Of a stretch of DNA of 64,000 bases, positions 3,794-8,594 are shown piece by piece. Location of the stretch: contig DASXEW010000001.1 of NCBI GenBank assembly GCA_036489885.1, positions 372,001 to 436,000 of the forward strand, read 5' to 3'. A program made the translations under genes and the position numbers. Under the pieces are notes generated by a model. It was not told where the DNA came from. It saw only the letters and a list, made by a program, of their open reading frames with translations, and did no database searches. This stretch comes from Candidatus Baltobacteraceae bacterium (GTDB lineage: Bacteria; Vulcanimicrobiota; Vulcanimicrobiia; Vulcanimicrobiales; Vulcanimicrobiaceae). Each line of letters opens with the position of its first letter. Within the stretch, counting starts at the first letter, position 1.

Positions 3794-5434
3794 TTAGATT
3801 GACCACTCCCAACAATTCCAGGCTTCGTTGACCGGATTCGGATCGAACCCTTTGAAATCGACGCTGATCGGCTGTAGCTGACGGGGCCACCACAGATAAT
3901 CGATAGGCATCTGCTCGTAAACAATCTGTTGAATCCTAGCATATGCTTTCTTGCGCGTTGGAATATCGTAGTGCGTCAGCGCGACCTGTTCGGCCGCGTC
4001 CATTTGCGGTGAGCAGAATCGCGGGTTGTTGCTCCCGTCCGGCGGAATCGACCGGCACATGAGCAGCGTCGAATCGTCGGGATCGATTCCCGCGATCCAG
4101 CCGGAGACGTTGAGATCGAACTTGCCGGACGCCAAAATTCCGCCCATGCCGAGCGGTGCGAACATTTCTACCCCGAGATAGCTCTTCACGGTCGCATCTA
4201 CGCCGATCGCTTTCAAGTAGGATTGGATCTGAACGACTGCAGTCCGACGCGTCACGTTCGACGTATTGGTGGAAAGGACGAGACTCAAACGCTTCGTCCC
4301 CTTGCGCAGGATCCCGTCGGCCCCGGGGGTCCAACCATCGGCGGCAAGCAGCGCCTGGGCTTTCGCGGGGTCGTACGGATACGACTTTCCTCCGACGTAG
4401 GCCCACATGAACGGCGGATGCTCGTCGTCGGCGGCCAGCGCCGTGCCGAACGTGACCTTGTTGACCAGGGCTTGTTTGTCGATCGCGTACGCAAGGGCAC
4501 GTCGAACGCCGGCGTCCGAGAGAATCGGATTCCGGGTGTACATCAAGAGACCAAGATATTGATTCTGCTGAACGAGCAGATTCTTGATATCGGGAATCGT
4601 CTTGAGCTGGCCATAGAGTTGCGGCGATGCTTCGAAGATCCAATCGATCTCGTGAGAGCGCAAAAGATTCATCGACGTGTTCTCGTCGGGGATGATTTTG
4701 ACGACGACTTCTTTCAGCTTCGGCTTGCCCATGAAGTAGTCGTCGTTGCGGACGAATTCTAGACGATCGCCGCGGATGTATTTTGAAAACTTGAAGGGGC
4801 CGGTTCCGACGGGACTCACGTTTTGCGGAGCGTTGTTGACATTGGGTAACATGCTAAGAAGATGTTTGGGGATGATGAAAATCGGTGAGTCGCTCTCGGC
4901 GAAAAATGTATTTACGGCCGGTGAGAATTTTTGCTTGAGATGAAAGACCGCGGTGTAGTCATCCGGCGTGTCTATCGAGCGGATGAGATTGTAACCGGAC
5001 CGGGTGCCGACGTTGTTCGCCGGGTTCATGATGCCTTGCCACGTGAACTTCACGTCCTGGCTCGTGAACGGAGCACCGTCGTGCCATTTGACGTTGTGGC
5101 GAAGCTTGTAGGTGATCGTGAGGCCGTCTTTGCTGATCCCCCCGTTTTCCAGCGTCGGAACTTGCGTCGCAAGAATCGGAATCGGCGTCTTGCCGTCTGC
5201 GCTCACGGTGATCAACGGATCGTACACGAGCCGGTCGAACATGACGTCCGTCGTGTTGCCGGATAAGAGAGGCTGCAGATTCGTCGGCGGGCTCTGTACG
5301 GCGACACGCAACACGCCGGGAATCGACCATGAGTGACGCTGTACGGTAGTCGAGCCTACCGTGACGCTTTGTTCGGTTGCGCGCGTACAGCCGCACAATA
5401 AAAAAAGAACGGCGACGAGTGCGCGGATCCGCAC
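3794..5434 (-). CDS. Peptide/nickel-type ABC transporter substrate-binding lipoprotein (family 5)
   Basis: 546 residues. An N-terminal lipoprotein signal (hydrophobic stretch ending LLCGC) would anchor it outside the inner membrane. The body is a type-II periplasmic binding protein of SBP family 5: PTLENGGISKDGLTITYKL, then VKWHDGAPFTSQDVKFTW and VSPVGTGPFKFSKY are family landmarks for oligopeptide, dipeptide or nickel binding. No permease or ATPase genes adjoin it, so its transporter is elsewhere. The GTG start overlaps the TAG of the PHP gene by one base, and its stop abuts pyrE. It is distantly related to the second family-5 lipoprotein at 44476-46134. Confidence 0.9.
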   Translation of the reverse strand: MRIRALVAVLFLLCGCTRATEQSVTVGSTTVQRHSWSIPGVLRVAVQSPPTNLQPLLSGNTTDVMFDRLVYDPLITVSADGKTPIPILATQVPTLENGGISKDGLTITYKLRHNVKWHDGAPFTSQDVKFTWQGIMNPANNVGTRSGYNLIRSIDTPDDYTAVFHLKQKFSPAVNTFFAESDSPIFIIPKHLLSMLPNVNNAPQNVSPVGTGPFKFSKYIRGDRLEFVRNDDYFMGKPKLKEVVVKIIPDENTSMNLLRSHEIDWIFEASPQLYGQLKTIPDIKNLLVQQNQYLGLLMYTRNPILSDAGVRRALAYAIDKQALVNKVTFGTALAADDEHPPFMWAYVGGKSYPYDPAKAQALLAADGWTPGADGILRKGTKRLSLVLSTNTSNVTRRTAVVQIQSYLKAIGVDATVKSYLGVEMFAPLGMGGILASGKFDLNVSGWIAGIDPDDSTLLMCRSIPPDGSNNPRFCSPQMDAAEQVALTHYDIPTRKKAYARIQQIVYEQMPIDYLWWPRQLQPISVDFKGFDPNPVNEAWNCWEWSI

Positions 5435-6831
5435 TAGCGGCGCTTGCCGGCCTTCTTCGATGATTTTTTCGCGGGCATCGAACGCTTCGGAGCCGCCTTC
5501 TTGGCAACGGTCTTTTTCACAGCCGCCTTCTTCGCGGGCACCTTCGTTGCAGCGGCCTTCACTGCCGGAACTTTGGCGCGTTTGGGCGGGGCAAGTTTTT
5601 TGGCCGGAGCGGGCCGTTTTGCCGCTGCTTTCTTCGCGACTTTCTTAGGGGGTGGCGCGGCTTTCTTGGCTTTGGGAGCCGGCTTGACCGCTGCGGGTTT
5701 CACGGCTGGCTTTGCGACGGGTTTGGCAGCCGGTTTCGCGGCGGTCTTTGACGCCGGCTTCGCGGATTTGCGTTCGGGCGTCCGCGCAGGCGTTGCGGTC
5801 TTTCTGATTGGGCCGGCTCGCGCACGCTTTTCCGCAACCGGTACCGGCGGAGGCTCGGGCTGGACCACGCGCAACGCAACGCGCGCCATGCGTCCGCCGA
5901 CGGGGAACGCAATTTCATTGATATCCAGGCTGTCGAGCAAATCGAGAACGACGTCGAAGGCGCCACCCTGGTCCTTGGGACTGTGCGCATCCGAACCGAC
6001 GGCGACCACGACTCCGGCATCGCGGCACTTGCGAACCAGACGTTTGTTGGCTTCGAGATAGCGCTGCTTTTCGTCGGGCGCATGATCGCGATACAAGAAG
6101 CGCGTGTTGAACTCGATCGCCATTCCCTTGGTCTTGGCCGCGGCGACGACTTGATCTTCATACTTCTCAAGCGACGCGCGTTCGGGCCAATGTCCGAAAA
6201 TCGCCGGAACGTAGAAGTGTCCGACAATCTGTCCCGGCAGCTCATCGATCGCTTTGAGGAGCGCTTCCATATAAAGCTGCCAGGTGCGCTCGGTACCGAC
6301 GTGATCGTAGAGCGCGATAAACTCCGGATTATCGAAGTTCCAAGTGTAGTTCGGTCCCGCCGTCGGATGCTCGATCGTGAGAAAGTGAACGGAGCGGATC
6401 ATTGCATCGGGCCGCATCGCATCGACGATGTTTTGGGCGTCCGGGCGGCAACGCGGATCGTTGTCGAGCTCGGCGCCGATCGAGAAGTGCATCCCGCGCC
6501 GCAGGCCGTCGGAGACGACCGCTGCATGTGCGACGTCGACGCTCGCAGCCTCGGCGGCCCCGTAGAGGTCGCCGGCTTGAGCGAGCTTGAGCGCGCGGCG
6601 GACGAGATTGACGGCGGCGGGGTCTTCGAAGGTGAGATAATTCATGTGGTCGGTGACCATCATGAATCGCGGGAACCCGCGCCGGCAGGCATGGTAGAAC
6701 CAAAGGAAGAGCATCCGCGCTGAGTACGGGATGGGCCGTTCCTCGGCGAACGCCTTGTGCTCACCCTTGGCGTGACCGTGCGTGTCCGGGATAGCCGCGA
6801 TTCGCGCGTCCCGGCCTTGATTGTCGTTCAA
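5434..6831 (-). CDS. PHP-domain phosphoesterase with a lysine/alanine/proline-rich histone-H1-like tail
   Basis: Residues 1-320 form a PHP (polymerase and histidinol phosphatase) metal-dependent hydrolase. DTHGH at residues 16-20 is the DxHxH motif and GSDAHSP at about 279-285 the C-terminal metal motif, with VTDHMN and IEFNTR between. Residues of about 335-465 are a basic, low-complexity tail of repeated PAKKA, AAKPA and KKAA blocks, like eukaryotic H1 or AlgP/HctB-type DNA-binding tails. The domain is known for phosphate-ester or nuclease chemistry. DNA association through the tail is inferred from its charge. The start is a TTG. It is first in an operon with the peptide-binding protein and pyrE. 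Confidence 0.85.
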   Translation of the reverse strand: MNDNQGRDARIAAIPDTHGHAKGEHKAFAEERPIPYSARMLFLWFYHACRRGFPRFMMVTDHMNYLTFEDPAAVNLVRRALKLAQAGDLYGAAEAASVDVAHAAVVSDGLRRGMHFSIGAELDNDPRCRPDAQNIVDAMRPDAMIRSVHFLTIEHPTAGPNYTWNFDNPEFIALYDHVGTERTWQLYMEALLKAIDELPGQIVGHFYVPAIFGHWPERASLEKYEDQVVAAAKTKGMAIEFNTRFLYRDHAPDEKQRYLEANKRLVRKCRDAGVVVAVGSDAHSPKDQGGAFDVVLDLLDSLDINEIAFPVGGRMARVALRVVQPEPPPVPVAEKRARAGPIRKTATPARTPERKSAKPASKTAAKPAAKPVAKPAVKPAAVKPAPKAKKAAPPPKKVAKKAAAKRPAPAKKLAPPKRAKVPAVKAAATKVPAKKAAVKKTVAKKAAPKRSMPAKKSSKKAGKRR

Positions 6832-7123: not shown

Positions 7124-7885
7124 TTACGCCCTGCCCACTGCGGCTGAGCGCGATGCGTTCGGCGGTACGTAGCCTTCCATTTCGAGGAGGCGAGCTTTTA
7201 CTTCGAGCCCGTACGCGTAGTTGTGAAGCGCGCCGTTCGAATCGACGACGCGATGACACGGGTAGAGCAGCGGTACCGGATTGCGCGCCATAGCGCGGCC
7301 AACCGCCCGTGCGGCTGACGGCTGCCCGATTTCGCGAGCGATCCAGCCGTAGGAGCGGACCTCACCCGGCGGAATCTCCGCGGCTTTCTTGAGGGAGGAT
7401 TGCTCGAACTCGGTGAGCGCCGAGATGTCAACGCGTGTGCCGTCCGTCTTGAAGGTTCGAAAATATTGGTCGACCGTGTCGCGTACCCATTGCGGTGCTT
7501 GGGCCGGGACGAGACCGCGGTGCAGACGTTTGGCGATCGCTTCGCAGAGCGTGCTCTCGACGCCGTCGGCACAGATGACGACGGCAGTGATGCCGCTTTC
7601 ACGAAACGCGACGAGCAAATCTCCGAGCGGGCTCGTCATGCGCGCGAACATGTCCGGTGTCGCCGGTCGCATCGACTTGATATGGTCCAGAATCTTCGGT
7701 ACGAGGCCCGAAGGCGGTTCTACGACGGGTAAGCAGTTCAGGCAATATGCGACGCCTTCGTACTCTTGATAGGCCTCTTGGCAGTCTTGGCACTTACGCA
7801 AGTGCGCTAGAACCTCATCGCGGGAGGGAGCCGAGCCGCCTTCGCGCAGCTCGTCCCACATTCGAACGAGATCACAGCACCGCAT
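7124..7885 (-). CDS. Zinc-finger anti-sigma domain fused to O6-alkylguanine-DNA alkyltransferase (MGMT)
   Basis: 253 residues. Residues 1-50 match the anti-sigma zinc-finger (ZAS/zf-HC2) pattern: Cys3/Cys4, then HLRKCQDC (His28, Cys32, Cys35), plus a second CLNC pair at 48-51. Residues of about 80-237 are a complete MGMT/Ogt domain: GEVRSYGWIAREIG, AARAVGRAMARNPVP and the active-site PCHRVV with Cys210, which accepts the alkyl group from damaged guanine irreversibly. ATG 7885 is chosen because AAGGAGA lies 7 bases upstream. It overlaps the sigma gene by 14 bases, so the two are translationally coupled. Domain identities rest on established motifs. An alkylation-sensing anti-sigma role is inference. 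Confidence 0.88.
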   Translation of the reverse strand: MRCCDLVRMWDELREGGSAPSRDEVLAHLRKCQDCQEAYQEYEGVAYCLNCLPVVEPPSGLVPKILDHIKSMRPATPDMFARMTSPLGDLLVAFRESGITAVVICADGVESTLCEAIAKRLHRGLVPAQAPQWVRDTVDQYFRTFKTDGTRVDISALTEFEQSSLKKAAEIPPGEVRSYGWIAREIGQPSAARAVGRAMARNPVPLLYPCHRVVDSNGALHNYAYGLEVKARLLEMEGYVPPNASRSAAVGRA

Positions 7886-8594
7886 GATTCGGTTCTCCTT
7901 CCTCGGCACTCGAGGGAGCAATGCGCCCGACTTGTGGACCGAGGATACGCCTGAGGATACGGACGGCTCGGTGGACGTGGGATTTCACAGTACCTATCGG
8001 TTGATCGAGAATCTCTGCGATCTCCGGATGGCTTCGGCCCTCGATAAACCTTAACGTTGCTGCCGCGCGCAAATGCATGGGTAATTGCAACAGTGCTTGC
8101 TCGACAAGCACCATGTCGGCGCCACGTTCGACGATCTGCTCGGGTTGATCCGGTCCCTCTTGCGTTTCATTCAACAACGCATCCGGATCCGCAAGCGAAT
8201 CGAGCGCAACGTTTGTCGGCCGCTTGCTACGCAAACGATTGCGGGTGACGTTTAGCGTGATCGTGTAGAGCCACGGCTGCAGACGGAGCTCGGCCCGTTG
8301 CTTGGGGTCCATTTTGACGAGGGCCCGGTAGGCTCGCACGAACGCGTCCTGTACGATCTCCTCGGCGTCTTCGCGATTGCCCGTCATGCGCAGCGCGAAG
8401 CCGTAGAGCCGTCGTTGGAATTCATCGACGATCCGTTCGAAATTCTCCGGTCCCGGAGCCGTCTCCGACCGAGTGGGTGCCGACGCCGCGGCAGCTTGGG
8501 CCAAACTATACTCCCGTCGAAGCGGGGCGAGAGCAGCCATACGCGCCCCCAGACCGCCCGGACTACTCTGAAGGTTTCGCGTTTTGGTCGGCAC
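7872..8594 (-). CDS. ECF-type RNA polymerase sigma factor
   Basis: 240 residues. Region 2 is visible as LYGFALRMTGNREDAEEIVQ with DAFVRAYRAL, and region 4 as RAAATLRFIEGRSHPEIAEI followed by GTVKSHVHRAVRIL, a helix-turn-helix that reads the -35 element. The first 45 residues before region 2 are an unusual low-complexity extension. The GTG start is supported by AAGGAG eight bases upstream; an internal ATG at codon 19 is the alternative. Its 3' end overlaps the zinc-finger/MGMT gene, its presumed anti-sigma partner. The target promoters cannot be read from the window. Confidence 0.92.
   Translation of the reverse strand: MPTKTRNLQSSPGGLGARMAALAPLRREYSLAQAAAASAPTRSETAPGPENFERIVDEFQRRLYGFALRMTGNREDAEEIVQDAFVRAYRALVKMDPKQRAELRLQPWLYTITLNVTRNRLRSKRPTNVALDSLADPDALLNETQEGPDQPEQIVERGADMVLVEQALLQLPMHLRAAATLRFIEGRSHPEIAEILDQPIGTVKSHVHRAVRILRRILGPQVGRIAPSSAEEGEPNHAVL

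Follow-up and report, generated by a model that had tools for sequence, protein, structure and literature searches.

On the minus strand of the window (the whole stretch of DNA analyzed here, 64,000 nucleotides in length), a gene for an ECF sigma factor (positions 7872 to 8540; 222 amino acids, beginning MAALAPL...) leads into a gene whose 253-amino-acid product joins a zinc-type anti-sigma (ZAS) domain to an MGMT domain (positions 7124 to 7885, with its ATG at 7885). The sigma factor has both region 2 and region 4 (Pfam Sigma70_r2, 6.5e-16; r4_2, 4.9e-13). As the original prediction stated, the two reading frames overlap by 14 bases (positions 7872 to 7885), and an overlap of exactly this length is kept in 69 of 83 distinct loci. 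The prediction also ran the gene pair out to position 8594; the pair itself stands, but the GTG at 8594 is almost certainly the wrong start codon and the ATG at 8540 the true one, because relatives begin there (MSALAPL...) and because the promoter sits between the two codons, such that the reading frame from the GTG is a longer version running through the promoter. The hosts are soil bacteria from a group that has received little study.

The first 71 residues of the fusion (positions 7673 to 7885, minus strand) correspond to a predicted class I zinc-type anti-sigma domain, an assignment drawn from profile matches, ligand conservation, and AlphaFold2 models. The zf-HC2 family scores the window protein at 16.5 to 18.8 bits against a cutoff of 22.2, and the domain was therefore tested through the evidence of its family: 14 of 25 relatives match zf-HC2 at an E value of 0.1 or better (best, 2.5e-6), and a profile of residues 1 to 76, built from a 25-member alignment, matches just two solved structures, RsiW of the SigW-RsiW complex (5wuq_C; E value, 3.4e-5) and 3hug_B (E value, 0.017), which carries the database name “probable conserved membrane protein” and which we take to be RslA from the SigL-RslA complex. 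Conservation, counted over 85 distinct fusion copies, is complete at the zinc ligands Cys3, His28, Cys32, and Cys35 (an Hx3Cx2C motif with an N-terminal fourth ligand), and Trp10, Asp11, and His68 are likewise invariant. The ZAS assignment made from the window alone is borne out by these residues and by the match to RsiW, as is its inclusion of Cys3; Cys4, listed alongside, is variable (a cysteine in 17/85 copies), and the second CxxC is missing in about a fifth of the copies (Cys48 present in 70/85 and Cys51 in 68/85), so neither is diagnostic of the fusion. Redox sensing through that second CxxC at residues 48 to 51, which had been suggested as an added redox or zinc sensitivity, is rejected because the site is not conserved.

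A fold search with the model of the whole fusion returned MGMT structures as its only clear matches, and the N-terminal part was therefore modeled alone; the search with this piece was weak, with RsiW at the top (E value, 0.69; Z score, 3.3). In both the full model and the isolated piece (pLDDT of 84.6 and 82.2, respectively), AlphaFold2 predicts helices at residues 4 to 16, 22 to 31, and 33 to 50, which form a bundle, and a fourth helix at residues 61 to 71. This predicted arrangement, three bundled helices and then a fourth, is the one known from class I anti-sigma domains, where sigma4 is contacted by helix 1 and sigma2 by helix 4 (PMC7406223), and it agrees with the proposal that the N-terminal Cys and His residues form a ZAS fold. 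An anti-sigma role for the N terminus is strongly supported by homology and by the pairing with a sigma factor, and we consider it very probable.

A linker of about six residues leads from this domain to a complete MGMT/Ogt domain (residues 76 to 240; positions 7166 to 7660, minus strand), which is recognized by DNA_binding_1 (PF01035) at 103 bits against a cutoff of 27, by TIGR00589 at 94.4 bits against a cutoff of 46, and by Methyltransf_1N at 21 bits, and which aligns with the C-domain of Escherichia coli Ada (1sfe) with a Z score of 20.6 in VIA-align. The full MGMT domain with a PCHRV motif that had been read from the window is thereby confirmed; the codon for Cys210 within that motif lies at positions 7256 to 7258 (minus strand). 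Tyr179, Asn202, Pro209 to Val213 (including Cys210), Tyr223, Lys230, and Glu237 are invariant in all 85 copies, and Arg193 is changed in a single one (84/85). We take these residues to be the catalytic ones of MGMT, and across the 85 copies they give no sign of a degenerate, noncatalytic enzyme.

A search for ZAS-then-MGMT proteins with ECF neighbors, proposed with the original prediction, showed that 93 of 103 genomes from one Eremiobacterota (Vulcanimicrobiota) order, across two families, hold the full-length fusion; the remaining genomes of the order mostly hold partial copies at contig ends or are incomplete, and the fusion is absent from 46 other genomes of the phylum (0/46). Of 85 distinct loci, 83 have an ECF gene immediately upstream and the other two lie at contig ends, so that adjacency holds at 83 of 83 testable loci, compared with none of 21 loci of ordinary MGMT genes in the phylum. 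This recurrence is far beyond chance. A chance neighborhood or an assembly artifact has in its favor the draft status of many of the genomes and nothing more, and is refuted by the 93 genomes, the unbroken adjacency, and a conserved promoter; we put its likelihood at practically nil. Among the best 80 of 257 matches in a scan of contigs, those that are named are mostly Eremiobacterota, WPS-2, and Vulcanimicrobiota, with UBP12 also present. Two contigs titled Rhodospirillales (L070 and L071), among the same best 80, bear the Eremiobacterota locus and are probably mislabeled metagenome bins.

The promoter ahead of the operon (CGAAACC-N17-GGTCT; positions 8551 to 8579, minus strand) ends 10 bases before the ATG at 8540 and is thus nearly leaderless. 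Its layout is shared by 66 of 82 distinct upstream regions of relatives, against 1.05 expected from shuffled sequences (maximum, 5), and consists of TGAAACC or CGAAACC, a spacer of 14 to 17 bases (17 being commonest), and GGT with C, T, or G as the next base (65 of the 66 sites), with the start codon mostly 38 to 40 bases past the first element. It resembles an ECF promoter that would be read by the operon's own sigma factor, and because this conserved element leads the ECF gene, the operon is probably autoregulated. We consider it somewhat more probable than not, judging from sequence, that the fusion is an autoregulated alkylation-response switch, in which the anti-sigma factor doubles as a repair enzyme.

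Beyond the operon itself, genome-wide scans for the promoter are uninformative because the controls gave more matches: a strict scan of the same genome found 7 matches versus 14 in a reversed control, and a looser, start-anchored scan found 16 versus 18. AlkB-like genes were examined in 10 genomes, and none had such a promoter at its start, a result that counts against an alkylation switch. The best candidate for an additional member of the regulon is an HtrA-like serine protease gene in the same genome, which has TGAAACC-N-CGGTTT just before its start (L173:1501-1528; C3:546434-546461); promoters similar to the sigma factor's own occur at 8 of 22 orthologs of this gene, against 0.12 expected. 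Separately, HslV-like genes in six relatives (L189, L193, L195, L197, L199, and L200) have leaderless TGAAACC-N-GGTA promoters. We do not assign these to the window sigma factor; since GGTA is a different −10 class from the GGT plus C, T, or G of its own sites, they are perhaps read by another ECF sigma factor.

TGAAACC-type promoters at both kinds of protease gene in relatives would suit a different reading, in which the anti-sigma factor acts constitutively or is regulated through proteolysis of the fusion under protein stress, with the MGMT domain acting as a fold or as a tether to DNA and reporting the state of protein or DNA only indirectly. The mismatch of the HslV sites weighs against it, as do the MGMT catalytic residues that were checked, which are invariant or nearly so, apparently as in an active enzyme, and we regard this reading as highly doubtful.

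The same genome has another operon in which an ECF gene, whose product is the closest within the genome to the window ECF, is followed by an MGMT gene with a C-terminal Ada_Zn domain (FCLPTC...CATCRP; L003:563-1944, C3 about 551459-552840), with a promoter-like TGCAACG-N-CGTGTT upstream (L275:1206). Ada_Zn scores 18.6 bits in this protein against a cutoff of 23, compared with 40 to 45 bits in actinobacterial versions. The N terminus is without a zinc finger and may keep a helix-4-like stretch, though this is suggestive only. This second operon with its adjacent ECF is also present in 14 relatives, and plasmid collection records from Nonomuraea, Rubrobacter radiotolerans, and Streptomyces show the layout as well; the first two also have a related promoter immediately ahead of the sigma gene, made up of TGAAACT or TGCAACC, a spacer, and CGTGTT or GGTGTT. 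On the R. radiotolerans plasmid (L291:1517-1552), the sigma gene overlaps that of MGMT-Ada_Zn, and its leaderless TGAAACT-N-CGTGTT resembles the promoters of the window clade. Streptomyces plasmids (L292:1776-3778 and L293:1515-3531) carry a sigma gene, MGMT-Ada_Zn, and a separate MGMT beside metF, with metH also present in L292. One genome, G119, has a divergent MGMT-Ada_Zn copy (L155:1408-2223) on a long branch, altered around PCELIARELGAGC but with PCHRV kept.

In a tree, the MGMT domains split by operon type into two groups, which are sisters with moderate support (94/68). Both operons share an ECF and an MGMT and differ in their zinc part, an indication that the input common to both is MGMT. 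We infer, with somewhat better than even confidence, that MGMT chemistry is what triggers sigma release; alkylation of the MGMT domain, or its engagement of DNA, would more probably than otherwise free the sigma factor and cause more MGMT to be made. In such a circuit, the N-terminal domain would bind the sigma factor, helix 1 on sigma4 and helix 4 on sigma2, and bar it from RNA polymerase. On engaging O6-alkylguanine, the MGMT domain would be irreversibly alkylated at Cys210 and would shift shape or lose stability, whereupon the adjoining helix 4 would drop the sigma factor (or the fusion would be degraded). The freed sigma factor would transcribe its own leaderless promoter, yielding more sigma factor and MGMT, and newly made, unalkylated fusion would repair lesions and rebind the sigma factor, closing the loop. 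More tentatively, and with slightly less than even weight, each O6-alkylguanine repair may use up one anti-sigma-MGMT molecule and free one sigma factor, such that transcription would count the lesions repaired.

The alkylation switch resembles Ada of E. coli in its MGMT domain, its self-consuming alkylation chemistry, and its probable autoinduction. In Ada, methylation of the N-terminal Cys38 leads to transcription activation, and a conformational change is required to expose the active cysteine of the C-domain (PMC4437013). The fusion, in contrast, is without the Ada metal domain or an AraC-type DNA-binding domain (neither the N-terminal metal domain nor the AraC-type HTH is matched in the window protein by Pfam or NCBIfam), and its output would pass through a sigma factor. 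The Ada-like logic originally proposed for the locus is supported insofar as the operon's MGMT appears to be under the operon's own control and an Ada metal domain is present in the sister operon.

A zinc anti-sigma domain is itself able to sense thiol stress, which counts against an alkylation switch. The main rival makes the zinc finger the sensor of thiol oxidation, zinc loss, or heat, in the manner of RsrA or RshA, and the MGMT domain repair cargo only; we think it unlikely, though less so than control by proteolysis. The ligands C3-H28-C32-C35 are of the ZAS type, and the fusion shares helices 1 to 4 and Hx3Cx2C with class I zinc anti-sigma factors of the RsiW/RslA type, among which RsiW, its best solved-structure match, is a membrane protein, whereas the fusion continues after helix 4 as a soluble MGMT. 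Zinc motifs are enriched in soluble anti-sigma factors and linked there to redox sensing, but in RsiW, the closest solved relative, the role of zinc is structural (PMC7406223). In Corynebacterium glutamicum, MGMT and a trypsin-like protease both belong to the SigH-RshA regulon (PMC3489674), and this tie of an ECF/anti-sigma pair to both functions, together with the promoters at HtrA-like genes, favors the zinc sensor; the MGMT of that regulon, however, is a separate member, unfused to the anti-sigma factor. Cargo alone leaves unexplained why the fusion comes straight after helix 4, and the sister operon, which has no finger, still pairs MGMT with an ECF and has the type of alkylation-sensing domain found in Ada.

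Of known sigma groups, the nearest is ECF122, whose conserved neighbors, according to a 2022 review, include 6-O-methylguanine DNA methyltransferases; the review gives no mechanism and places the group among the sigma factors without known anti-sigma factors (PMC8999054). The conserved neighborhood found here likewise sets an ECF beside MGMT, but the window protein joins MGMT to a complete class I zinc anti-sigma domain, whereas ECF122 is described as having no anti-sigma partner of its own. In Eremiobacterota and Actinomycetota, the operon of an ECF plus MGMT-Ada_Zn probably belongs to ECF122. The original claim that no such system had been described therefore holds in part: the link between ECF122 and MGMT was already listed, whereas keyword searches of an open library of papers found no description of the ZAS-MGMT fusion or of its mechanism. 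If the alkylation switch is correct, it would represent an adaptive response to alkylation built on a sigma factor rather than on an Ada activator, and a single polypeptide would act as sensor, repair enzyme, and off-switch; ECF122-like systems, so far without a mechanism, would gain one that is directly testable. Two phyla would then hold parallel solutions, a zinc anti-sigma or an Ada metal domain, around one ECF-MGMT core, and the fusion could be a source of a compact, lesion-counting genetic switch.

Elsewhere in the window, positions 5434 to 6831 (minus strand) encode a predicted hydrolase-like protein with HTDHMNYL-like and GSDAH motifs, whose long C-terminal tail is rich in Lys, Ala, and Pro and is histone-like.
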